Source of the DNA: a virus
IMG/VR virus record: IMGVR_UViG_3300005732_000030
Coordinates: 1-24,876 of that record
Reading direction: 5' to 3' (one strand)
Length of the DNA: 24,876 bases
Shown here: positions 11,619 through 24,876 of the stretch, in pieces
Layout of the letters: the number at the start of each line of letters is the position of its first letter
How positions within the stretch are numbered: position 1 is the stretch's first letter
Notes under the pieces: model-generated
Database searches by the model: none
What the model was told of the DNA's origin: nothing
The model's input: only the letters and a program-made list of their open reading frames with translations
Program-made: the position numbers and the translations under genes

Positions 11619-12310
11619 TGGTCGTCAGCGTAGATCGAGTAGCTCGGCGCTACGAAGACATCGTTCAGAACCAACCTATAAGCGTGGACATGCCCGCGTT
11701 CGAAGCTTCGGACATAAAGGTCATATACGGCATCGCGGCTTTGGAGGCGGTTCAAGGTACCGATTACACCGTTGCGCTCGCCGAAGACTTTGACACGTTC
11801 ACGGTAACGCCGACAGCTACGTTGTACAATAAGATACAAGCGCTGATAACTGCCGACAGTGACGAAGAAGACGCTATAACGGTGCGGCGTGAGTTGGACA
11901 TGCTGACTGACGCCACTGCGGCGGGGGTGCGACACACCCCGTTCACCGCTAAAGAGTTTGACCGAAACGCTATGCGAGATCAACAGTTGAAAGATCGCAT
12001 GGAGCGCTCTGTCGGTCTGTCAGAAACCTTTGCGGAACCTTACTTCGATCTCACTGTGTACGAGACGCCCCCTGACACGTCGGACAGTCCTGTTATGGTG
12101 TTCCGTTCGAACGGGGGTTTGGGGCCGGGTCCGAGTAGTGACCAGATAGCGGACGCTCAAGAGAACGGGCAAGCGGTCAATGACTTCATCGAGACGTACG
12201 TGGACGACCCCCCGAACTACGAGCAACAGTATCGCGACGCGGTAGGGTCCACGTTAACAGGCGAAGGTGGGTCGGACTTCACGAGCATATATCTAGGAGC
12301 ATTACTATGA
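11618..12310 (+). CDS. Tail fibre N-terminal adaptor protein (T7 gp17 N-domain-like), 230 aa
   Basis: The ATG shares one base with the preceding stop (TAATG) and has AGGAGG six bases upstream. Residues 1-140 match the tail-attachment domain of T7 gp17-type fibres: RYEDIVQNQ, a strand ending IKVIYG, the YTVALAEDFDTFTVTPTA segment, then the diagnostic AITVRRELDMLTD, FTAKEFDRNAMRDQQLKDRMERS helix. In T7 this domain binds the tail, with a receptor-binding shaft following in the same chain. Here the protein stops after about 90 more residues of Asp/Pro-rich linker, so it probably works as a separate adaptor. Two downstream proteins supply the distal fibre and tailspike. The end overlaps the next gene by ATGA. 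Confidence 0.8.
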   Translation: MVVSVDRVARRYEDIVQNQPISVDMPAFEASDIKVIYGIAALEAVQGTDYTVALAEDFDTFTVTPTATLYNKIQALITADSDEEDAITVRRELDMLTDATAAGVRHTPFTAKEFDRNAMRDQQLKDRMERSVGLSETFAEPYFDLTVYETPPDTSDSPVMVFRSNGGLGPGPSSDQIADAQENGQAVNDFIETYVDDPPNYEQQYRDAVGSTLTGEGGSDFTSIYLGALL

Positions 12311-12792
12311 GTTTGGAAACCCGCGTAGCCGCTTTCGCCGCCGCTGTAGGCGCGGATATGAAAACCGTTTGGACGTTGTTGAACAATAAGCAGAGTGACC
12401 TCACCGCGCTTACAACCACGAACAAAACCAACCTCGTGGCCGCGCTTAACGAGATCAACTCCGCAATCGGCGCGCTGATAGACGACGCTTCGTCATCCTC
12501 TTCAACCTCGTGGTCAAGTGTAAAGATACAGGCGCAAATCAATGCGGCGGTTTCGGCGCTTGTGGACGGAGCGCCCGGAGCGCTTGACACGCTCAACGAG
12601 ATCGCTGCGGCGCTCAACGACAACCCGTCGGTCATCCAGAACATCATAAACGCGCAAGCCAAGCGCGTGGCGGTAGACCAAGTGCAGTCATTTACTACCG
12701 CAGAGAAGTTGCAAGGGTGCAGCAATCTTGGTATCGGCAACCCGGAGACTGACTTCACTGCCGCCTATACAACTGCGAGGGACGCCGCATGA
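12307..12792 (+). CDS. Short tail fibre protein, 161 aa
   Basis: The start overlaps the adaptor stop (ATGA) with AGGAG upstream. Residues 1-19 carry a docking-type motif, MSL-x-TR ... AVG-x-D, repeated at the start of the next gene product. Residues 20-70 form a helix with heptad-like spacing and a Ser-rich break (SSSSSTSW). Residues 75-130 contain DGAPGALDTLNEIAAAL, a repeat common in tail fibres and collar-type fibre proteins. The final 40 residues (VDQVQSFTTAEKLQGCSNLG) are also typical of fibre shafts. The protein is too short to be a full receptor-binding fibre, so it may be a linker or a branch subunit between adaptor and spike. It has no enzymatic motif. Confidence 0.65.
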   Translation: MSLETRVAAFAAAVGADMKTVWTLLNNKQSDLTALTTTNKTNLVAALNEINSAIGALIDDASSSSSTSWSSVKIQAQINAAVSALVDGAPGALDTLNEIAAALNDNPSVIQNIINAQAKRVAVDQVQSFTTAEKLQGCSNLGIGNPETDFTAAYTTARDAA

Positions 12793-15491
12793 GCCTTATA
12801 ACCCGTATAACCGAAGCGTTCCAAGCCGTAGGCGGCGACATCCGCGCGCTCATCTTGGACACCAACAAGAAGCTCGTGTTCTCGGACCGCGCCGCATTCG
12901 TAACGTGGGCGGGGTCAAACACTCCCGTGGCCGGAGCTATGGCACATGTAGCTGTCCCCGGACAAGCACGGTTGTTGAAGTATACGTACGACGGCACTTC
13001 AACCGACATGCCCGAAGCCAGCCTAAACGGTTGGCGTGCCGTAGCCCCTGTGTATCTCGAACACTACAGGATCGCGACTACGACGAAAGGTGATGGCAGC
13101 GGCGCGGACTATACTTCGCAGGTTCAAGCGGCCATGGACGCAACGGAAGGTGAACTCGTCTTTACGGGCTTTGTGAAGATCACCGACAAGGTTGTGTGCC
13201 CGAACAAGTGCTCGCCTGTGTGCCACGATGGGCGAGCCTATGGCGGCTTCAATGTGTTCTCCGACTTCAATATGTCGGCCACGTGTGTGTTTCAACCGGG
13301 TACGGGTGAGACGGCTTCAACGGTCGGCGACTTCGGCATGTGGTTCCAACAACCTTCGTCGCCTGCCAATCGCGCGGCGCTTACGCAATACCCACCTGCG
13401 ATTAACATCGGTGCGCCGGAAGGGGAGGACGCGCTGTTTGACGTTGCCGCCGCTGACATCGTTACCGGACGTACCTATGAGATCAAGACTGTAGGCACTA
13501 CCAACTTCACGACTATTGGTGCGGCGAACAACAACGTCGGTACTACATTTGTCGCTACAGGCGCGGGCACGGGTACAGGCACCGTGGACACCGACGTCAG
13601 CACCGCCCCGGCACTGGCGCGAGGGTTCCTGAAAGCTATTCGTATCGAGCAGGCATGGGACGGCATTATTGGGGTAGGCAACTGCGGCGGATACCGCATG
13701 GGCATCGTAGAGGTAGGAGCGTTCAACCGAAACGTAGACCTTTACGGGCCGCTAGACTTTCTGCACGTAGACAGTGTGCACGTATGGCCTTTCGGGTTTG
13801 CGGGTAACAGTGCGTTGGCGAATATCTACTATGACGGAGACACGATAGGGTTCCGGGCACGCCACGTTGACGGCTTGACCGTAGACAAGCTGTCCGTGTT
13901 CCGCTCGAAGGTGGTCATGGGTGAAGTGGGCCGAACCACCATACTGCCTATGGGCATCGACGTTCTAAATCTGGACGGTGACAAAGCCGTGCTGCGGCTG
14001 CAAGGCGAGAGCACAAAGATCGGCGAGTGCTACTCTAGCAAGTCTGCCGCAGCGGCAAACGCCAGCTATCAGGACGTGATCGCCAGCGGAGGCTTGCACC
14101 AAATCGGCTCGCTCAAAGCTACGTCTAACGCAGACGGAGTTGTTCTGACCAGCGGAACGGCAGACCTGCACGTAGACGACTATGAGGTACGGCAAGTGGC
14201 CGCAGATCGTCGTGCCGCGATTGCGCAAGGTTCGTCTCGTCTTAGCATTGGCATCGCGCGTCCACGCAGCGACTTGACGCGCACAGGCCACATGTTTGTT
14301 CAACAGTCTGGGGCGTCGCTACACATTGGCGGACTGGCACCAACAGACAGCGGGCAACCTGCCGTGGCGTATGTCAGCTTTGCGACAGACGACGAGTTGA
14401 ATTACGCAAACTGTCCTAACTACGATGTAGCTTCCCCTGCACATGCAGGTCGCGGTACGTACATTGGACGTAACCTAACGCAACGCTCGGCGTCGGTTAC
14501 GCGGCTTCGAAAAATTGGTACGGGTGAAGGCCCGGAGATTGCGATGTCTCTGGCGCGTGGCAGTGCCGGGTCTGAGACCGCGCCCGCCGATGGTGACGTG
14601 GTGGGCGACGTTGTGTGGAGCATCTGGGACGGTAACGGTTACAACCCCGGCGCGTACTTCCGGGGGTTGGTGAGCGGAACTCCTGCGGACGGTGTGACGC
14701 CTATGAAGATCCAATGCTTGATCGAGGACACAGCGGGCAACATCGCAGTGCCGTGGGCGGCGAGAGGAGATAGGTTTGACGTAAACGTGGACATGCGGCA
14801 CGTGTCGGATGCTTTCGACATATACCACAACGGCGTGTGGTATATGCGCCACCGCATTGCCGACACCGACATTAAGATCGGCGCGACGAATAGCACGAAC
14901 GGCCTGTTCTATCCGTTCACTATCGACGCCAGCACGGAGACCCTTATTCTCGGCACGGACGAAACCACTAACGTTGAAGTCAAATCGCCAGTCACTCTCG
15001 ACATGCAGGGTGCGGCCACGGATGCTATTCAGTTCCGCATGGCGGCTTTTCGACCGCATTTTGTTCTTGAGGACAAAAGCACAGGCGCAGTTGACTGGCA
15101 AATCTCCGCTGACAACGGCGATCTGTCGTTTTTGTACGGAGATGCGTCCACTGACGTAAAGCTGGCAAATACGGCGTTTGAAATCATTGACGCAGGGTCC
15201 CCAGAATTCCGCTTCCACGGTCCTATCGAGCTTCATGAGTACGGGTCAGAAGGTGGTGAGCTGCGGATTAAAGACGCCAGTGGCAACACCGATTTTTATA
15301 TTGACTGCGACAGCTCGAACAACCTTCGCATCCGTCTGAGTAACGGTACAGGTATCTATCTCACTTCGGGCGGTAACGTTGTCATGAACAGCCTGCCGAC
15401 TTATGCAGACGACGCGGCGGCGGGCACCGGAGGTTTGACCGCAAACATGGTTTACAAGACCAGCACAGGTGAACTGAGGATCAAGACATGA
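12789..15491 (+). CDS. Tailspike / receptor-binding protein with beta-helix body, 900 aa
   Basis: The ATG overlaps the previous stop (ATGA) with GAGGG upstream. Residues 1-19 repeat the docking motif of the preceding protein. Residues 25-95 resemble a spike head (FSDRAAFVTWAGSNTPVAG ... GWRAVAPV). From about 100 (DGSGADYTSQVQAAMDA) to about 590 the repeating short strands and Gly/Asn turns suggest a right-handed parallel beta-helix of pectate-lyase type, as in polysaccharide-degrading tailspikes. Residues 222-266 are a Thr/Gly-rich inserted module. The C-terminus ends with the GGLTANMVYKTSTGELRIK motif common in phage fibres, and no S74 chaperone is seen. It likely recognises and perhaps cleaves a host surface glycan; no catalytic pair can be assigned by eye. 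Confidence 0.75.
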   Translation: MSLITRITEAFQAVGGDIRALILDTNKKLVFSDRAAFVTWAGSNTPVAGAMAHVAVPGQARLLKYTYDGTSTDMPEASLNGWRAVAPVYLEHYRIATTTKGDGSGADYTSQVQAAMDATEGELVFTGFVKITDKVVCPNKCSPVCHDGRAYGGFNVFSDFNMSATCVFQPGTGETASTVGDFGMWFQQPSSPANRAALTQYPPAINIGAPEGEDALFDVAAADIVTGRTYEIKTVGTTNFTTIGAANNNVGTTFVATGAGTGTGTVDTDVSTAPALARGFLKAIRIEQAWDGIIGVGNCGGYRMGIVEVGAFNRNVDLYGPLDFLHVDSVHVWPFGFAGNSALANIYYDGDTIGFRARHVDGLTVDKLSVFRSKVVMGEVGRTTILPMGIDVLNLDGDKAVLRLQGESTKIGECYSSKSAAAANASYQDVIASGGLHQIGSLKATSNADGVVLTSGTADLHVDDYEVRQVAADRRAAIAQGSSRLSIGIARPRSDLTRTGHMFVQQSGASLHIGGLAPTDSGQPAVAYVSFATDDELNYANCPNYDVASPAHAGRGTYIGRNLTQRSASVTRLRKIGTGEGPEIAMSLARGSAGSETAPADGDVVGDVVWSIWDGNGYNPGAYFRGLVSGTPADGVTPMKIQCLIEDTAGNIAVPWAARGDRFDVNVDMRHVSDAFDIYHNGVWYMRHRIADTDIKIGATNSTNGLFYPFTIDASTETLILGTDETTNVEVKSPVTLDMQGAATDAIQFRMAAFRPHFVLEDKSTGAVDWQISADNGDLSFLYGDASTDVKLANTAFEIIDAGSPEFRFHGPIELHEYGSEGGELRIKDASGNTDFYIDCDSSNNLRIRLSNGTGIYLTSGGNVVMNSLPTYADDAAAGTGGLTANMVYKTSTGELRIKT

Positions 15492-16875: not shown

Positions 16876-17139
16876 ATGGACGGCGATTTGAAGTGGGTGA
16901 TTGGTATCGCCGTATCAATGGTTATCTCTTTCGGCGGTATCATGATTACCACCTTCCGCAACATGTCAACCAAGATCGCAAAGACCCACGACCGCATCGA
17001 CGACGTAAAAGACAAGTACGTACGACGCGACGATCTCGACGGACACTTGACCCGGATAGACCGTACAGTACACGAGATCAGAGAAGAGATGCGCGAGAAC
17101 CACCGACAGGTTCTCGCGGCGTTATCCTCCAAAGACTAA
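16876..17139 (+). CDS. Holin-like membrane protein with coiled coil, 87 aa
   Basis: ATG 16876 has GGAG at 16865-16868 with seven-base spacing. A GTG at 16858 would add six residues and also has a weak SD. Residues 6-27 form one hydrophobic segment (WVIGIAVSMVISFGGIMITTF). The rest is a charged coiled coil (KTHDRIDDVKDKYVRRDDLDG ending in IREEMRENHRQVLAAL). This one-TM plus coiled-coil form is common next to endolysin and spanin genes in alphaproteobacterial phages. It is the only holin candidate in the cassette (T7 gp17.5 is also a one-TM holin), but function is inferred from position and topology. The gene overlaps the opposite-strand zinc-finger gene tail-to-tail by four bases. Confidence 0.6.
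   Translation: MDGDLKWVIGIAVSMVISFGGIMITTFRNMSTKIAKTHDRIDDVKDKYVRRDDLDGHLTRIDRTVHEIREEMRENHRQVLAALSSKD
17092..17118. terminator. Perfect hairpin at the convergent junction, possible bidirectional terminator
   Basis: CGCGAGAACC (17092-17101) and GGTTCTCGCG (17109-17118) are perfect inverted copies with a seven-base loop ACCGACA. The hairpin lies in the last codons of the + strand holin-like gene, 18 bases before the stop of the - strand gene. There is no clear U-tract on either side, although the - strand continues pyrimidine-rich (CTCTTCTCT). Its place where two operons meet suggests it blocks or pauses converging polymerases, or protects 3' ends. Confidence 0.4.
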
Positions 17140-17492: not shown

Positions 17493-17522
17493 ACTGTAGA
17501 GGATTCCTATCCGACTAGTCAA
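17493..17522 (-). promoter_or_regulatory. Candidate sigma70-type promoter for the zinc-finger gene
   Basis: On the - strand, TTGACT (17522-17517) is followed after 18 bases by TACAGT (17498-17493), matching the -35 at five of six and the -10 at four of six positions. The predicted start near 17486 lies about 45 bases before the zinc-finger ATG. The same stretch contains the palindrome GACTAGTC (17513-17520) over the -35 box, which could be an operator. This is the largest non-coding gap in the window. Confidence 0.4.
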
Positions 17523-17530
17523 GTCGTACT

Positions 17531-19495
17531 TTACGTCATGACTATGACGAGCGTAGAGCGCGCACCTTCCCCTTCGCGTTTAGCGTGCAGTGTGCGCCCC
17601 TTGATCTCCGTCGGCGTAGCGAACAGACCTTCTATGCGCTTCTTCACTTCGGTGTCCGACTTGTTGGCGTACAGCGGCTCTTCGGTCTTCACCACCGCTA
17701 CCGCCTGACCGACAGGCATGGACGCTTGACCGTTCGCCGTCAACGTGGCCATGATTATATCAGCGATGCGGGATCGAATGTTCATTGTGTTCTTTTTCAA
17801 CTCGGCGTGACGCAGTACCCCTACGACATCTCCGCTGGGTATCTTGCAACCTTCTTTGCGGAACCATGTTGCTTGCTCGGAGGACAGAGCGAGGTTCATC
17901 TTAGCGTCGTCGAGGCGCACCCACGTGTTGCGCTCTGCGTCTTGCAGACCGTAGTCCTCACAGTCTTGCGCCGAAGCGTTCATAAGAGTGAAGCTGATAC
18001 GAGACTTGTACACGATACCGGACGCGCCACGTGATATGTCCATGTTACCGATGCGCTCTTCTTGCCGAGACTGCCCCGCTTTGGTGGTGTGGTGCAGTAC
18101 GAGAGAAGCGACGTTCGCCTTTCGCGCTACCGCCTGCAAGGTCTTCATGACGAAGTTCATGTGAGGGTTGTCCCCCTCGTCCACGTCGTGAATGTCAACA
18201 AGAGGGTCGTACACCACAAGGCCCACGTCGTCGTCCGAGGCGAACTCGACAAGCTGGTTGACCACGGCGTCGTTTACTACAGGCACGCGGCCTTGTGCGG
18301 ATACGAGGCGAAGGTCTATGTCGCTCGACGAAAGCAACACGACTTGTTTCTTAACTTCGTTATAGTCGAGATTGTACGACTGACACACGGCGTACAGCCT
18401 GCGCGACTGCTCGGCCCGGTCATCTTCGCCATTGTACACGATAGCTTTGCACTTCACGTGACAGGTGTACGGGCCGAACGATCTGCCGAGCGCCATGTGC
18501 GCCACGATAGCGAGCGACAAAGACGACTTGCCCGCGCTGCCCGGAGCTAAGAGCAGGGTCGTCTCGTGCAGCATGAGCACCCGGTCGAGCATCCATGGCC
18601 GAGGTGGGATGGAAGTGGGATCGAGCGCATTGCCAAACTCTATCTGGTTCTGTGAGAATACAGACGGCGGGGGCGCGACCTCCACGTTGGCAAACAGGAC
18701 CGAAGGATCGAGACGGCCCATGTCTGCGGTGCCGTACTGCGCAGCGTTCTCGACCTTCCCACGAAGCTCGTCTAAACTCCACGGCGGTATGCAGCGCGGG
18801 TTCCAGTGCTCGGCAAGCAGAGCGTACGCAGTGTCCACCGACAGCGCCATCTCCCGCACAAGACGGGCTGCGGTGACGAACGTAGTCTCGTCACCTCGCT
18901 GTCCTTCAACGGCCACGGGTGCCGACTGCAAGAATCGGACGCCTGCCTCGATAGAAGCAGGGCTGTCTAGCGCGGATGTGACGGCGGTTTCGCGTCGTTC
19001 GTAGGGGTCACGCAGCCGTTGTGACACTCCGTCAGGAACGTAGCTCGGCTCGCGGTCAGTGACAACCGTGTACGCCACCCCGTCAATGGTGGAACCGGGT
19101 GCGACGACAAAACCGTTATGGGACCGTATGTCCACGTCGGCAGCGATGGGCGCATTAGAGCTATCAGGACCGACGAAATAGCAGTGGTACCCGTTAGTAG
19201 GTGTCTGTACTACCAGTGTTTCATAGTGCCCTCCTAGTTGCATGTACTGGTTGTGACCGTCTTTGCCGTCTTTAACATCGACGTCCACCACCACCATGTC
19301 GTTGCACAGTGTGCCGATGTTAAAGTCTTGCTCGACTTGCAACACGGGGTCGCGCCACAAACGGATGATGGTGTCGCGATCTGTCGTCGCTACCGCTGGC
19401 CAGTCTTGGTGCAGCGGCTCCTTTGTGTTCGGTGCTAGGGGGAAGACGGGGAAACCACGCTCAGCCCACGCCAGCGCAGCTTGTAGTTTACCCAT
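17531..19495 (-). CDS. Prim-Pol / RepA-like helicase fusion protein, 654 aa
   Basis: Residues 1-165 form a bifunctional primase-polymerase (AEP, Prim-Pol type) domain: FPVFPL near the N-terminus, catalytic Asp71 and Asp73 in VVVDVDV, His104 in NGYHCYF, and DIRSHNGFVVAPGS at 122-135. Residues 170-265 resemble the PriCT-type linker after such domains (GDETTFVTAARLVRE). Residues 290-570 are a RecA-like RepA/AAA_25 helicase: Walker A APGSAGKSS (317-325), Walker B LVVYD (Asp430), and LVLHHTTK (466-472). The C-terminal 80 residues look like a winged helix. One protein could thus prime and unwind, replacing T7 gp4. It starts directly after the stop of the winged-helix gene and lies downstream of the polymerase gene in one leftward unit. 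Confidence 0.85.
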   Translation of the reverse strand: MGKLQAALAWAERGFPVFPLAPNTKEPLHQDWPAVATTDRDTIIRLWRDPVLQVEQDFNIGTLCNDMVVVDVDVKDGKDGHNQYMQLGGHYETLVVQTPTNGYHCYFVGPDSSNAPIAADVDIRSHNGFVVAPGSTIDGVAYTVVTDREPSYVPDGVSQRLRDPYERRETAVTSALDSPASIEAGVRFLQSAPVAVEGQRGDETTFVTAARLVREMALSVDTAYALLAEHWNPRCIPPWSLDELRGKVENAAQYGTADMGRLDPSVLFANVEVAPPPSVFSQNQIEFGNALDPTSIPPRPWMLDRVLMLHETTLLLAPGSAGKSSLSLAIVAHMALGRSFGPYTCHVKCKAIVYNGEDDRAEQSRRLYAVCQSYNLDYNEVKKQVVLLSSSDIDLRLVSAQGRVPVVNDAVVNQLVEFASDDDVGLVVYDPLVDIHDVDEGDNPHMNFVMKTLQAVARKANVASLVLHHTTKAGQSRQEERIGNMDISRGASGIVYKSRISFTLMNASAQDCEDYGLQDAERNTWVRLDDAKMNLALSSEQATWFRKEGCKIPSGDVVGVLRHAELKKNTMNIRSRIADIIMATLTANGQASMPVGQAVAVVKTEEPLYANKSDTEVKKRIEGLFATPTEIKGRTLHAKREGEGARSTLVIVMT

Positions 19496-19741
19496 CTACT
19501 TCTTCCGTTCGATCTTCTCTAGCCGATACGTTTGCTTGATGACGCCGGGAACGATGCGCTTGTTCTTGAGCTTCTCGTTTATGCGCGCTATGACGCTGCC
19601 GAGACGTTGCTGCATGACGCGCACTTCGGTGTCTTCGCTGTGCGAAGCCGGGTACGCAGCTTTGTGCATGTCGGCTATGCGTATGTCCTCGTTAAGAACT
19701 AACGCGTCGTACACACGCTTCTGTAAGTGTGAAAGTCTCAT
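19496..19741 (-). CDS. Small winged-helix protein, 81 aa
   Basis: Starts at ATG 19741 with GAGGG upstream and ends exactly where the Prim-Pol gene begins. Residues 1-15 form a helix (LSHLQKRVYDALV). Residues 38-75 (DTEVRVMQQRLGSVIARINE, then VPGVIKQTYRLEK) resemble the recognition helix and wing of response-regulator-type winged-helix domains. No sensor or catalytic part is present. A role in DNA binding at the replication origin or in transcription control is inferred from fold and position between polymerase and primase genes. Confidence 0.6.
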   Translation of the reverse strand: MRLSHLQKRVYDALVLNEDIRIADMHKAAYPASHSEDTEVRVMQQRLGSVIARINEKLKNKRIVPGVIKQTYRLEKIERKK

Positions 19742-19753
19742 GCCTGTCGCCCT

Positions 19754-21940
19754 CTACTTTACGTACCGAGTATCTTCCCACGCACCGACCGACACGGGAA
19801 GCCCCGTGTACACTTCGTCTTTGCGTGCCATGATCTCGGCAAATTCGTTTTCGTTATGATGCGACCCGTCGGCCACCTCGGATAATATCTCGTCGTGCAC
19901 GGTCAGTATGATCGGATACCCTGCGGCTTCGACGTTGAACATGGCGTCCACCATGACGTCGCGTGCCGTGGCTTGCACGATGTTCTCACACTGTAACCCG
20001 CCGTACAAAGACTGCTTAGTCCACTGGCGGGTGCGGCTATCGGTGCCCCAGAACGTGACCTTGCGCTTCCAAGTTGTATACTCGCTGCCATCTGCGCGTG
20101 TAAAGGTGCGCTCTTCCTGCACGATCTCAGGGGACGAGTAGCACAACATCCGGCCCGAAGGCAGGACGCACCACAGCGCTCTTTGATCCGAGTAGTAAGC
20201 GACGCGCTGTGTGTGCTCCGGGTGCACGACGTTGCCGGGTGCGGCCACGGCTTCGATAGCTGCGTCCTGATAGTTCCACCACGACTGCACGATTGCGGGG
20301 TTCGCCTTGCGCCAGTTGTCAACAAGCACTTGCAGGGCGGTCCACTCTCGTTCGAACAGGCCCATTCTGTTTGTGCCCTTGCGGTGGTACTTCGCAGCGG
20401 TCTCGTTCCACTGTTGCGCAGGCGTGGCCTGCTCGACCGGAAGCGATAACTCGAACGGGTTGACCCCGTAGTTCGCACCCATCTGTAGGTACGCACCGAC
20501 CCCGCCTTGGTATCCGAGCGACAGTTCTTGCACCTTGCCGATCTGACGATTGGCCTTTGTCACGTCGTCCACTGCGATGTCGAACGACCGCGCGTAGCCG
20601 AGCTTGTACAGGTCCGGTCCTACCTTATCGTCGTAATCTTGGAACGCTTGCAGCTTCCACATCTCGTTTGCAAGCCACGCGTTGACCCGGCCCTCAATGT
20701 TCGAGAAGTCACCGCCGATAAACCGCTTGCCTTCGGGCGCTTTGATAGACGAGCGCAACGCCTTGGATAGTAGCTCCAAAGGTTCGAGCGGTCCGTGCAC
20801 GGACACGATAAGCTCGTATATGTCTTTCGGTTTCAGCGACGGGTCGGCGCACAGTTCGTGCAACCACTGTACCTTTTCGTGCAAGAAGTCATCATCGAAG
20901 TTCTCGTTGGGTCCGGCAGCGTTGCGCGGGTAGTTCTGGGGTTGCGTCAGTCGCCCCGCCCACCGTCCAGTAGACGCACCGTGATAGTTGACAAGTCCTC
21001 GGATACGACCGTCGCTCGACACACACTTCTGCTTAGACCGATACTTCGCAGTGCTTGTCTTCCACGCTGCCTGCCGCAGCTTGATCGCTTGAAACGCAGT
21101 GTCGTCTAGCGCGCACTGCGCAAGGAAGATCACGTCATCGACCTCCCCCTTGGCCAAGCTGGTACACTCTACGCCGCGCGCGTTCAACCACTCAATAATC
21201 TTCTTGTCGTTGCTGCACTTTGGCACGGCGCGGTCAGTGATCTCTCGCATAACGCGGTCGTTCTGCTTCTTGCTGTACTCGACGAGTTGCGCCGCACGTT
21301 CGACAAAGCCTTCGTCAATCGGCACGCCTCGCTCGTTGATAAGCTGATCGAACTCCCACACCTGCCGCTCGCGCTCTGTCAGCGGAGGCAGCATCTCGTC
21401 AGCCTGTGTCTCCACTTCGACGTCGCGTCCGCAATATAGCATGTTGCGATCTATGTCGGCAGGGTCGTCCCACCATGTGATGCTTCCGTCCTCGTTGAAG
21501 CGGCGCGGCTTCGCCATCTTCATCATGAGGCGGTTGCCCTCCATGTCTTTATCTAGCGCAGTGCCCAAAGCGATGCCGAGCTTGCCGAGCGCTTGCGGGT
21601 GTGCAATCGCGGCGGCGCGGGACATGGTGCAGTCTTGTTGTTGTATTGTCATGTACGGCCAGTGCGGGCACAGCCGACCGACGAGTATCCAGTTCCATAT
21701 AGTGCGTTCGAACGCAGCGTTGTGGCACCCTATCGTACCACCGTTGCGTACGTGATCGAGAAGCGCGACCGGATCGGGATAACCCGGTCGCCACTCGTAC
21801 CACGGTCCGGTGTTACCGATGCGATAGCAGAACCCCCACGGCCACGTGGTCGGGTCTTCGGCGTATCGGTACACCCCGGACTTAACAAGGTCCGTTGCAC
21901 TCCGCGTCTCGAAGTCGATATGTGCAGTCGGACCTTGCAT
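19754..21940 (-). CDS. Family A DNA polymerase with 3'-5' exonuclease, 728 aa
   Basis: The exonuclease domain (1-190) shows Exo I IDFET (Asp9, Glu11), Exo II HNAAFE (Asn74, with Glu78 where Asp is usual) and Exo III YCGRD (Tyr169, Asp173). The polymerase domain has TGRWAGR and QPQNYPR (324-339), motif A GGDFSNIEGR (Asp411, Glu416), the O-helix with Arg465, Lys469, Leu473 and Tyr477, and motif C VHDE (His682, Asp683, Glu684). Leu473 aligns with E. coli Pol I Phe762. There is no 5' nuclease domain and no DnaJ-like insert. It is expected to be the replicative phage polymerase, working with the DUF2815 ssDNA-binding protein and the Prim-Pol/helicase. The ATG at 21940 is three bases after the preceding gene's stop, with a weak SD. 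Confidence 0.9.
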   Translation of the reverse strand: MQGPTAHIDFETRSATDLVKSGVYRYAEDPTTWPWGFCYRIGNTGPWYEWRPGYPDPVALLDHVRNGGTIGCHNAAFERTIWNWILVGRLCPHWPYMTIQQQDCTMSRAAAIAHPQALGKLGIALGTALDKDMEGNRLMMKMAKPRRFNEDGSITWWDDPADIDRNMLYCGRDVEVETQADEMLPPLTERERQVWEFDQLINERGVPIDEGFVERAAQLVEYSKKQNDRVMREITDRAVPKCSNDKKIIEWLNARGVECTSLAKGEVDDVIFLAQCALDDTAFQAIKLRQAAWKTSTAKYRSKQKCVSSDGRIRGLVNYHGASTGRWAGRLTQPQNYPRNAAGPNENFDDDFLHEKVQWLHELCADPSLKPKDIYELIVSVHGPLEPLELLSKALRSSIKAPEGKRFIGGDFSNIEGRVNAWLANEMWKLQAFQDYDDKVGPDLYKLGYARSFDIAVDDVTKANRQIGKVQELSLGYQGGVGAYLQMGANYGVNPFELSLPVEQATPAQQWNETAAKYHRKGTNRMGLFEREWTALQVLVDNWRKANPAIVQSWWNYQDAAIEAVAAPGNVVHPEHTQRVAYYSDQRALWCVLPSGRMLCYSSPEIVQEERTFTRADGSEYTTWKRKVTFWGTDSRTRQWTKQSLYGGLQCENIVQATARDVMVDAMFNVEAAGYPIILTVHDEILSEVADGSHHNENEFAEIMARKDEVYTGLPVSVGAWEDTRYVK

Positions 21941-21943
21941 GTG

Positions 21944-22243
21944 TTACACCAACGGCGACTGTGCCGGGTCGGTAACAGGCACGACGAACCAATCGTCCGC
22001 CATGACGTCGCCCATGCTTGGTTGCCACACGCCCACGGTACCGGACACGTCACACAGGTCGATGTGCGGGCGGTACGTTACATCCGACCCTTCGCCGAGG
22101 ATAGATAGCAAAGGCTCGCGGTTCACCTTGAAGTTACTTCCGGGCACGAGGAACACGAACATGCCTTGTCCGTTCCACCCGCCACGGCACAGCCGTTTGC
22201 CCGCTTTGATCTCGTCGAGTGCTTGTGAGAAGTTCATACCCAT
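21944..22243 (-). CDS. tad2: Tad2-like anti-Thoeris protein (DUF2829 family), 99 aa
   Basis: The protein matches the DUF2829/Tad2 pattern nearly end to end: MNFSQALDEIKAGKRLCRGGW (two blocks), then NGQGMFVFLVPGS (24-36), a hydrophobic stretch with EPLLSIL, TYRPHIDL (56-63), GTVGVW (68-73) and a final MADDWFVV (81-88). Tad2 proteins bind and sequester the gcADPR signal made by Thoeris ThsB, preventing ThsA activation. Start: AAGGAG (22250-22255) gives six-base spacing to ATG 22243; ATGs at 22249 and 22237 are in the same frame. A GTG at 22321 overlapping the upstream stop (GTGA) could extend it by 26 residues. It sits between the ssDNA-binding protein and polymerase genes. Family assignment is by motif memory, so binding specificity is not shown. 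Confidence 0.75.
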   Translation of the reverse strand: MGMNFSQALDEIKAGKRLCRGGWNGQGMFVFLVPGSNFKVNREPLLSILGEGSDVTYRPHIDLCDVSGTVGVWQPSMGDVMADDWFVVPVTDPAQSPLV

Positions 22244-22249
22244 TGTCAT

Positions 22250-22255
22250 CTCCTT
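22250..22255 (-). promoter_or_regulatory. Ribosome binding site for the Tad2-like gene
   Basis: On the - strand AAGGAG ends six bases before ATG 22243 and directly abuts ATG 22249. It is the best SD in the leftward unit and argues that a short form starting at 22243 is made, whether or not the upstream GTG at 22321 is also used. Confidence 0.6.
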
Positions 22256-22317
22256 GGTTGCAGGGTTGTAGAGAGCGGCTCGGGTAAAGTCGCCGCTCCC
22301 GTAGTCAATCCCGATCT

Positions 22318-23223
22318 TCACAGATCGTTCATTGCTTGATCGTACTCCGCCCACGATCCGTAACCTTGAGGCACGGGACCGCGAGGGTCCGCCGCTGCCG
22401 GAGCGGGCTGACCGGGCATGGTGTACTGCGCGCCGCCTGCGGGCGGTGCAGCCGGAGCAGGAGCGGCGGCAGGCGGGGCCGCGTGAGTGCCCCCGGCAGG
22501 GGGAGGCGGCATAGCGCCCGGCGCAGGAGGTTGGCCCCCGGCAGGCATGTTGCCCGCCACCTGACCCGGCTGGATCGCAGGCGTTTGGATCGCGCCCTTG
22601 GCCGCAGCGAACGTCTTGTTCGGGTCGGGCGCACCGCCGCCGAACTTGGTGTCGTCGCCGATAATCATCACGCTCTGCAAGCCGAAGCCGACGCCCTTCT
22701 TGCGCGGGTCTTTGTAGCTGTACGCGTTGACCGCGCAGATAGCCCACACGCCGGGGTACACTTTGGACTGATCGACGATAGGGTTGCCACGTGCGTCAAC
22801 GACGGGCGGCTTGAACTTCGACGTGCACGTCATGAACACGCAGCCCGGAGTGAAGCCGCCGAACTTGGCCTTTTCGGCTTGATCTCGGAACGGGCTGTGC
22901 AGTCCGTAGTATTGACCCGACGCAGCGTCGTAGTGGTCGGCGAAGTCCTGAGCGCAGATGCGATGGTACTCTTCGTAGAACAGACCGAAGTCGGCCATGG
23001 GTGTGAACAACAACGCTGCTCCGTACTTCGGGTTCTCCATCTTTGCCGACGGCTGCGGCAGTTCGAACAGTGTGTCGAACGCCAGACGGACAGGTCCGGT
23101 CAGAATGTCGCCTGTCTCGTTGCCCGTCTCGGCGTCGATAACCTTTTGAATGGGTACGCTCTGTGCGGTTTGCTGTATCCAAGCATCGCCAACGATGCTG
23201 TCTCGTACGATAGTGGTTGTCAT
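22318..23223 (-). CDS. ssDNA-binding protein (DUF2815 family), 301 aa
   Basis: Residues 30-200 form the beta-rich DUF2815 domain: GPVRLAFDTLFEL, KYGAALLFTP, then GGFTPGCVFMTCTSKFKPPVV and VWAICAVNAYSYKDPRKKGVGFGLQSV, an OB-fold-like series. Residues about 205-280 are a flexible Pro/Ala/Gly linker. The protein ends with a short acidic/hydrophobic tip (EYDQAMNDL), as ssDNA-binding proteins use to recruit partners. DUF2815 proteins occur with DUF2800 nucleases and family A polymerases in phage replication modules, as here. The ATG at 23223 has a GAGAG-type SD. The stop overlaps a GTG of the Tad2-like frame (GTGA). Confidence 0.8.
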   Translation of the reverse strand: MTTTIVRDSIVGDAWIQQTAQSVPIQKVIDAETGNETGDILTGPVRLAFDTLFELPQPSAKMENPKYGAALLFTPMADFGLFYEEYHRICAQDFADHYDAASGQYYGLHSPFRDQAEKAKFGGFTPGCVFMTCTSKFKPPVVDARGNPIVDQSKVYPGVWAICAVNAYSYKDPRKKGVGFGLQSVMIIGDDTKFGGGAPDPNKTFAAAKGAIQTPAIQPGQVAGNMPAGGQPPAPGAMPPPPAGGTHAAPPAAAPAPAAPPAGGAQYTMPGQPAPAAADPRGPVPQGYGSWAEYDQAMNDL

Positions 23224-23271: not shown

Positions 23272-23305
23272 CCGCCACCCGTCACGTCGAATTACCGGGT
23301 GGCGG
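23272..23305 (-). promoter_or_regulatory. Strong hairpin between nuclease and ssDNA-binding protein genes
   Basis: CCGCCACCCG (23272-23281) and CGGGTGGCGG (23296-23305) are perfect 10-base inverted copies with a 14-base loop. The stop codon of the nuclease gene lies in the loop. On the - strand no U-tract follows, so a classic terminator is unlikely; an attenuator, RNase barrier or 3'-end stabiliser that adjusts downstream expression is more likely. Confidence 0.45.
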
Positions 23306-24637
23306 AAGTGCGCCTGCGATCTGTCCAAATGTGTTCTGTGCTCTGTTTACTGCGGGGCGCGGGTCGTCCTCGTCCACCAACACGAGGTTGCCAGACGATT
23401 GCTTTAGTGTCAGGAACGCAAACGCTTGCTTAGCTTCTTCCGCTGCTTTCTTCTTGCGTCCACGCCCGACACGTCTCTTGTACTCTTCTACGACGAGCTT
23501 CTCAGCCGATGTAATAGGTATGATCTTCTGATTAAATATGCGTTGCAGCACGGGATACGCCTCCATGACCTCTTGATACGCGTCCATAGCGGCCACGGCG
23601 TTGCGCTCTCCCAACATAGCGGCGAGCTTCTGTGCGACTGCGGCGTCCTCTCCGTAATACTTACGCTTGGCTTGCGCCTCTACCAACTTAGCGCCGGGAA
23701 CGTGATGTCCGCCGCGTGCCAGTTCGTCGGCGTGCTTGTCAACGTCGTCAAGAAACTTGCGCAGCATCGGCGCGTGAAAGCGGATACGAGCAAGGCGCTC
23801 TATACCCATGGCCGCAGGGTTCGGCAGTGCCGGAGCGTTGACGTGCGCGATCTGCGTAAACGTGCTGCTTGCGACTTGCAAGGCCATGGCCTCGCGCGCA
23901 GGGCACAAAGTGCGTGCGTCGCAGAAGCGGCACTGATCCTCGCCGGGGGTTAGGGCTGCGTCCTCTTTTTCGCAGTCAAGCACAACGTCTTCGAGTTCTT
24001 CAAGATACTCCCACACCTCGTAGGGTGTGACCTCGTGTTCGCGTATGATGCCGTCCTCGTGAAACGCACGGGGCTGCACGATGCAAAGAACAACGGTGTC
24101 TATATCGGCGGGGTCTACGACGGCGTTGTCTTCGTACAAGAAGCCTGCCGCATACTGCATCGGTTGGTTGTTACCGCGCACCGCTTTGGCTACGCCAGCG
24201 CCGTGCTTATAGTCGATCACAAAGAGTGCCCGAAGGGAGGGGACGAGTATAGCCACGTCGCAATACCCGCCCGCCTCGCCCGGTGCCGCCGTGAGTGGAG
24301 GATCGACGAACCGTTCAACCCACATCGTAGCGTCAGGATGTGCGTCGAGAATAGAATAGATGTGGTCGAGTGCGATCTGTATCGACAGATAGAACTCGTT
24401 CTGCCCGTCGTCCAACGTGTGCGGCAGTGTCGTGAGAAAGTCGTGCGCTTCTTGTGCGTCTCGATAACCCGCGCTCAGCGCCGCTTCAAGAATGGTATGG
24501 GCGTCGGTCCCCTCCTGTGCGTAAGGGGACGAAGGGCGGACAGGAACGCGTTTGAGCAGGTTGTTCGACCCGCGACATGCGAAGAACCGATCTGCTTGTG
24601 ACGGTGAGTACCGTCTGTGCGCGCGCTCCTGCCCCAT
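23282..24637 (-). CDS. Cas4/RecB-like Fe-S nuclease (DUF2800 family), 451 aa
   Basis: The protein shows the PD-(D/E)XK nuclease motifs of the DUF2800/Cas4-like group: GTDAH (His47), GGYCD (Asp127), VIDYKHG (Asp142, Lys144) and a QYAAG motif at 161-165. Cys21 together with Cys236, Cys239 and Cys245 (CRFCDARTLC) would hold a 4Fe-4S cluster, as in AddB and Cas4. The C-terminal 200 residues are helical with a basic patch (RRVGRGRKKK) and no clear fold. The expected function is a 5' or ssDNA-directed exonuclease in phage recombination or end processing. It lies upstream of the DUF2815 protein gene, a frequent pairing. The ATG at 24637 is two bases after the previous gene's stop. Confidence 0.8.
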   Translation of the reverse strand: MGQERAHRRYSPSQADRFFACRGSNNLLKRVPVRPSSPYAQEGTDAHTILEAALSAGYRDAQEAHDFLTTLPHTLDDGQNEFYLSIQIALDHIYSILDAHPDATMWVERFVDPPLTAAPGEAGGYCDVAILVPSLRALFVIDYKHGAGVAKAVRGNNQPMQYAAGFLYEDNAVVDPADIDTVVLCIVQPRAFHEDGIIREHEVTPYEVWEYLEELEDVVLDCEKEDAALTPGEDQCRFCDARTLCPAREAMALQVASSTFTQIAHVNAPALPNPAAMGIERLARIRFHAPMLRKFLDDVDKHADELARGGHHVPGAKLVEAQAKRKYYGEDAAVAQKLAAMLGERNAVAAMDAYQEVMEAYPVLQRIFNQKIIPITSAEKLVVEEYKRRVGRGRKKKAAEEAKQAFAFLTLKQSSGNLVLVDEDDPRPAVNRAQNTFGQIAGALPPPGNST

Positions 24638-24639
24638 AG

Positions 24640-24876
24640 TTACACCGCCAAGTGTGCGGCGATCTCAGTGTAGCGCTCTGCGGGCACGTCGGCGGTCTTG
24701 CCGAAGCCGAACTCGGCGAGCTTTGCCTTGGCCGCTTTGGGACCATGCGCCTTAGCGTAGGCTTGCACCGCTGCGCCGAAGTCAGCCTGCGTCATCGCTG
24801 CCGGAGCAGGTGCAGGGGCCGGAGCGGGTGCAGGGGCCGGAGCGGGTGCAGGGGCCGGAGCGGGTGCAGGGGCCGG
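24640..24876 (-). CDS. Protein with (Pro-Ala)n linker and small C-terminal domain, 5' truncated by window
   Basis: The frame is open to the window end, so only the last 78 residues are visible. The part nearest the edge is an uninterrupted Pro-Ala repeat of about 25 residues encoded by tandem 18-base units. It is followed by a helical domain of about 50 residues (MTQADFGAAVQAYAKAHGPK, KAKLAEFGFG, ERYTEIAAHLAV). The KxHGxxAAKAxLxEFG pattern resembles small C-terminal domains on phage replication or recombination proteins, but I cannot name it. The missing N-terminal part lies upstream, and it is probably the gene preceding the nuclease in the same unit (two-base gap). Confidence 0.6.
   Translation of the reverse strand, partial: PAPAPAPAPAPAPAPAPAPAPAPAPAAMTQADFGAAVQAYAKAHGPKAAKAKLAEFGFGKTADVPAERYTEIAAHLAV
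24803..24876. repeat. Tandem 18-bp repeat, four copies, cut by window edge
   Basis: The unit GGAGCGGGTGCAGGGGCC is repeated at 24803, 24821, 24839 and 24857 and continues into the edge (GG at 24875). The first copy has A instead of G at 24808; the others are identical. Read on the - strand it encodes Pro-Ala-Pro-Ala-Pro-Ala per unit. Copy number may vary between related phages or be collapsed in assembly. Confidence 0.9.

Follow-up and report, generated by a model that had tools for sequence, protein, structure and literature searches.

What does a tad2-like gene do between the ssDNA-binding protein (SSB) and DNA polymerase genes of a phage replication operon, and which host signal might its product bind? 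SPO1 Tad2 is the founding anti-type I Thoeris member of the family. The gene studied here lies in a linear IMG/VR fragment of 24,876 bp, analysed over its whole length and referred to below as the window.

The gene between SSB and polA is a member of the Tad2 family

The studied interval holds a single ORF, which runs on the minus strand from 22243 to 21944 and encodes 99 aa; the initial annotation had placed it at the right coordinates, leaving the strand unstated. The product was matched over the full length of Pfam profile PF11195 'Tad2-like' (E 3.3e-23; profile 1-73/73), and its score of 82.4 bits, with a Pfam cut-off of 25 bits, is far beyond chance. This match and the predicted fold bear out the proposed Tad2/DUF2829 identity, the latter label still being attached to PF11195 in phage-collection records. 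All peptides quoted as its signature (NGQGMFVFLVPGS, TYRPHIDL, GTVGVW and ADDWFVV) are present in the product. In a PDB sequence search, every match was Tad2 or AcrIIA7/HgmTad2, with E-values of 8e-21 for ModTad2, 1e-14 for SptTad2, 5e-10 for HgmTad2 and 5e-9 for SPO1 Tad2, and a profile-based search recovered ModTad2 at E 2e-34. PHROGs 872, 1048 and 30130, all of unknown function, matched the window protein through their Tad2 part; PADLOC reported no match in the window. On the basis of sequence profiles and the structural model, the window gene is securely placed as a genuine member of the Tad2 family.

A ribosome-binding site (AAGGAG) stands 6 nt upstream of the ATG at 22243. The frame is open further upstream, up to a GTG at 22321 that overlaps the SSB stop (GTGA) and would give 125 aa. 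Because AAGGAG is found six bases before the ATG, the 99-aa reading is preferred and the ATG is the better-supported start. The 26-residue upstream peptide was considered as a family hallmark and rejected, L019 being the one locus examined in which it recurs. In L019, the ORF located between SSB and polA likewise starts at the SSB stop, and its peptide FFMGVDSATHGGDKTVV is similar to the window's upstream peptide KIGIDYGSGDFTRAAL.

tad2 is embedded in a replication operon

On the minus strand, a DUF2800 exonuclease gene is followed by those for an Enc34-type SSB, tad2, polA, an 81-aa ORF and a Prim-Pol/AAA helicase-primase (Table 1). Pfam matches of both neighbours confirmed the position of tad2 between the SSB and polymerase genes. 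A crude scan found no minus-strand promoter-like site within the operon, the sole minus-strand one being at 17522, beyond the primase gene. Since tad2 sits closely between SSB and polA with no such internal site, it is likely co-transcribed with the replication genes.

Table 1 Coordinates of tad2 and the surrounding operon in the window
Feature	Coordinates	Strand	Remarks
DUF2800 / PD-(D/E)XK exonuclease	23282..24637	-	First operon gene that is complete in the record
ssDNA-binding protein (Enc34_ssDNA-bd; Enc34 type / gp2.5-like)	22318..23223	-	301 aa; upstream neighbour of tad2
In-frame upstream stretch	22244..22321	-	Possible GTG start; 26-residue extension MKIGIDYGSGDFTRAALYNPATKEMT
tad2-like gene	21944..22243	-	99 aa, ATG start; Tad2-like/DUF2829 domain at residues 3-88
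DNA polymerase A (DNA_pol_A)	19754..21940	-	728 aa; downstream neighbour, starts 3 nt past the tad2 stop
81-aa ORF, polA-primase interval	19496..19741	-	Kept in relatives; no family match
Prim-Pol / AAA_25 helicase-primase	17531..19495	-	Pfam/PHROG matches

Several further features were observed in the record. Just beyond the end of the replication-side genes, a minus-strand terminator-like hairpin of 10 pairs (17092-17118) separates the two convergent blocks of genes. The record ends (24640-24876) within an ORF that carries 4.3 copies of an 18-nt Pro-Ala repeat unit, where the contig may have broken. In the tail region, the consecutive ORFs 12307-12792 and 12789-15491 have similar starts (MSLETRVAAFAAAVGADMK / MSLITRITEAFQAVGGDIR; weak BLASTP E 0.029), and the 900-aa putative tail protein encoded there matched neither PHROG nor Pfam profiles.

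The predicted fold and the family-invariant residues are those of Tad2

An AlphaFold2 model of the window protein, computed as a monomer from 78 aligned sequences of the window and the fetched loci for a family whose pocket forms across protomers, reached a pLDDT of 91 and a pTM of 0.77, with the C-terminal tail alone being poor. Compared with solved structures, as the initial annotation had suggested, the model resembled Tad2: all 24 PDB matches at E<=0.001 were Tad2 or AcrIIA7 chains, and the next unrelated match had an E of 0.85. The best match was 9eib (ModTad2 with His-ADPR), followed by SptTad2-cGG, HgmTad2/AcrIIA7 and SPO1 Tad2-gcADPR. Fold comparison with predicted viral structures gave the same Tad2 picture.

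Twelve residues that are nearly invariant across 165 family sequences (R20, G22, W23, N24, G25, M28, F29, W73, S76, D79, D84 and W85) are all kept in the window protein. The gcADPR pocket is framed by the loops β1-β2 and β3-β4, by β4 and by α3 (review PMC12043709), and judging from the alignment, the invariant residues of the window protein would fall in elements of this frame, namely the β1-β2 loop, β4 and α3.

The window protein belongs to a branch apart from the characterised Tad2 proteins

The closest solved relative is ModTad2 of a Myroides odoratus prophage (9eib with His-ADPR, 8v3e apo), with ~40% identity and a fold E of 1.8e-10 (TM 0.76/0.85) in addition to the sequence E-value given above. 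It reportedly counters type II Thoeris by way of His-ADPR (PMC13299392). ModTad2 differs from the window protein in its branch, in the absence of the FxVNRxPL...HxD residues described below and in a shorter β2-β3 connection. SPO1 Tad2 (gp34.65; 8smf with 1''-3' gcADPR) has family, fold, GWNG, W73, D79 and D84-W85 in common with the window protein, but differs in the middle region and was matched at an E of 5e-9 only. Fold and invariant residues are likewise common to HgmTad2/AcrIIA7 and SptTad2 (8kbi, 8kbk, 8wjd, 9kzr), whose longer insertion holds a cyclic dinucleotide site (PMC12043709); sequence alignments showed that the window protein is without this long insertion, the segment being shorter. 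By description, the window protein can also be likened to Tad2-like P015 of Sinorhizobium phage AP-20-A, a lytic podovirus of an alphaproteobacterium, which is 50.5% identical to MoTad2 (PMC13299392).

In a tree of 165 family members, the window protein fell inside a group of 98 members (support 0.85) whose hallmarks are F38, V40, N41, R42, P44, L45, Y57, H60 and D62 (F-V-N-R-x-P-L...H-x-D), with ModTad2, SPO1 Tad2 and SptTad2 outside. A 45-row tree separated 39 rows of this branch from the same three proteins (95/90), SPO1 and SptTad2 being on long branches. Of the solved or tested proteins, these placements cover ModTad2, SPO1 and SptTad2. We found no solved structure within the FxVNRxPL...HxD branch and know of no experimentally tested member, although literature beyond that surveyed might hold one.

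Reported ligands of the family comprise gcADPR (SPO1), His-ADPR (ModTad2) and, via a separate insertion, cyclic dinucleotides (HgmTad2, SptTad2) (PMC12043709, PMC13299392, PMC11722364; PDB). Because the branch of the window protein differs from those of ModTad2, SPO1 Tad2 and SptTad2, none of these ligands can be transferred to it, in agreement with the earlier view that the ligand is not readable from sequence. Its proposed role as a sponge of gcADPR holds as far as membership of the Tad2 family is concerned; gcADPR as the signal is not supported, the closest solved protein holding His-ADPR. Sequence and model suggest that the window protein likely sponges a TIR-made nucleotide, which may be His-ADPR, gcADPR or another.

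The SSB-polA junction is a variable cargo site

Among 43 related loci with both SSB and polA, some of them near-duplicates and hence not all independent (e.g. L020/L021, L209/L210, L213/L214, L022/L026), the SSB-polA gap as given by a simple ORF caller did not exceed 100 nt in 25 and was longer in the other 18. Junction content varied among relatives of the window phage: a NUMOD4/HNH endonuclease in L015 (polA 75% identical to that of the window), a Tad2 with a different N-terminal extension in L016 (68%), an unrelated 205-aa ORF in L019 (69%), and an empty junction in L017 (66%) and L028 (59%). HNH endonucleases were also found at this junction in L216 and L227, making three loci with L015. 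This variable content identifies tad2 as dispensable accessory cargo rather than a part of the replication machinery. The initial annotation was correct in stating that the gene is not in a typical anti-defence cluster; the slot is a variable cargo site. The L019 ORF (L019:8378-8995), which has no Pfam or PHROG match and starts on the SSB stop (ATGA), is possibly a cargo gene or a leader shared with the window tad2.

tad2 entered the junction independently in related phages

The Tad2 in the slot of L016 (IMGVR_UViG_3300034072_000110) occupies the same junction of a related phage and belongs to the same branch as the window protein, to which it is 57% identical; its different N-terminal extension places 37 aa before the core. 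Despite the similarity of their polymerases, grouping of the window and L016 Tad2 proteins together was rejected (p-AU 0.0026). Instead, the window Tad2 had its sister in L002 (100/87), a phage with only 34% polA identity. As the window and L016 proteins are not sisters, the slot took up tad2 on two or more occasions.

At other junctions of the exo-SSB-polA operon, Tad2 was found in L002, in L093 and in L075/L080, the last two being identical. In these DUF2800 exonuclease-SSB-polA operons (L002:8001-12455, L075:3705-5930, L080, L093:1882-8902), tad2 is placed either between exo and SSB or between SSB and polA. Mapped on the tree, which is based on ~90 columns and leaves many forks unresolved, operon location required at least four changes, three of them forced by well-supported branches, and a single origin was rejected (p-AU 6e-6). 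Of 173 Tad2 loci, 11 had an exo, SSB, polA or primase gene nearby; with so few loci and a count made without a null model, we do not claim enrichment of Tad2 in replication operons.

Thoeris signal in genomes with related prophage Tad2s

A search of bacterial genomes with virion proteins, aimed at the host, gave no match, a class sample of 385 genomes yielded three distant matches to polA, and the window contained no tRNA or Rfam features. The nearest prophage Tad2s are mostly in Alphaproteobacteria. ThsB_TIR matches, mostly weak, occurred in 8 of 28 genomes with a prophage Tad2 of the window's branch; in a sample of 385 genomes from the class of G001, 55 had one. Since the two sets are composed differently and contain many weak matches, we claim no enrichment. 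The genomes were also searched for type II ThsA_Macro, without a positive control. Thoeris signal in the genomes with the nearest prophage Tad2s is thus weak or absent, which counts against the sponge explanation. A host lineage with Thoeris or another nucleotide-signal defence, as implied in the initial annotation, is a possibility.

In a Pelagimonas genome that carries a prophage Tad2 (L111), locus L189 (G003:C13:57154-60432) has a 165-aa ThsB_TIR gene (E 3e-24) whose neighbours are a weak TIR match of 208 aa and a SLOG cluster3 gene (E 1e-73); a second ThsB_TIR is found ~3 kb away. In this one genome, L189 is plausible as a candidate TIR-SLOG defence locus with a role in TIR signalling.

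Discussion

Our analyses suggest that the window protein, the product of a cargo gene in a replication operon, most likely sponges an ADP-ribose signal made by a TIR enzyme. Inserted at the SSB-polA junction of the exo-SSB-polA operon, tad2 would be transcribed alongside the replication genes, and its product would be at hand as the host produces the signal. Presumably as a tetramer, the sponge would bind and hold, without degrading it, a small ADP-ribose-type alarm nucleotide from a host TIR enzyme of a Thoeris-type system, leaving the host suicide effector unactivated. We consider this explanation as a whole, a Tad2-family sponge serving as counter-defence cargo at the junction, to be probable.

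It is unlikely that such a sponge is aimed mainly at a CBASS cyclic dinucleotide instead of a TIR product. HgmTad2 and SptTad2 can bind cGG, SptTad2-cGG (8wjd) and HgmTad2/AcrIIA7-cGG (8kbk) ranked third and sixth in the fold comparison, and the dinucleotide site lies in the β2-β5 insertion (review PMC12043709), where the branch has the invariant polar residues R42, H60 and D62. However, this insertion is shorter in the window protein than in HgmTad2 and SptTad2, its conserved residues differ from those of SptTad2 at aligned positions, and SPO1 Tad2, which is also short, does not bind 3'3'-cGAMP (PMC11722364). Inhibition of Cas9 by an AcrIIA7-like anti-CRISPR, a function assigned by name to one family member, is the least probable reading: PDB entries named AcrIIA7 (8kbi, 9kzr) do match the window protein, yet AcrIIA7 itself has been crystallised in complex with cADPR and cGG and is more distant than ModTad2, and a Cas9 role of the window protein is unsupported here.

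The genomic position with tight spacing to both neighbours, and the way in which tad2 recurs in the exo-SSB-polA operons of several phages, would also fit a structural or auxiliary replication protein, such as a small protein that partners SSB or DNA polymerase and reuses the Tad2 fold. The variable junction content argues against such a role, since most close relatives have nothing, an HNH endonuclease or other ORFs in place of tad2, and most Tad2 loci lie away from replication genes (any nearby in the 11 of 173 noted above); we regard it as quite improbable. Still less probable is a decayed passenger, a Tad2 relic without ligand binding, to which departures from the branch consensus at C19, G21, Q26, L63, C64, M77 and G78 could point. 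The frame is intact and has a ribosome-binding site, the family-invariant residues are all kept and the fold is predicted with high confidence; moreover, some deviations (QPSMGD) are common to the nearest relatives L002, L001/L029 and L111, and therefore look lineage-specific rather than a result of decay.

For the preferred reading as a sponge of a TIR-made signal, the branch itself invites a wider, tentative and rather doubtful idea: the FxVNRxPL...HxD branch (~98 sequences, for the most part of proteobacterial phages and prophages) might be a functional Tad2 class in which R42, H60 and D62 determine a distinct ligand specificity, loaded repeatedly into early replication operons because the signal arises when replication starts. 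Tad2 is already established, and one further homologue changes little. The invariant residues specific to this large clade, in which we found no solved structure, name candidate specificity positions, and the evolutionary pattern of repeated loading into the replication operon is new, if modest. The SSB-polA junction works as a cargo slot that took up Tad2 at least twice and homing endonucleases as well; if real, such junctions would be places to seek counter-defence genes in small lytic phages without anti-defence islands.
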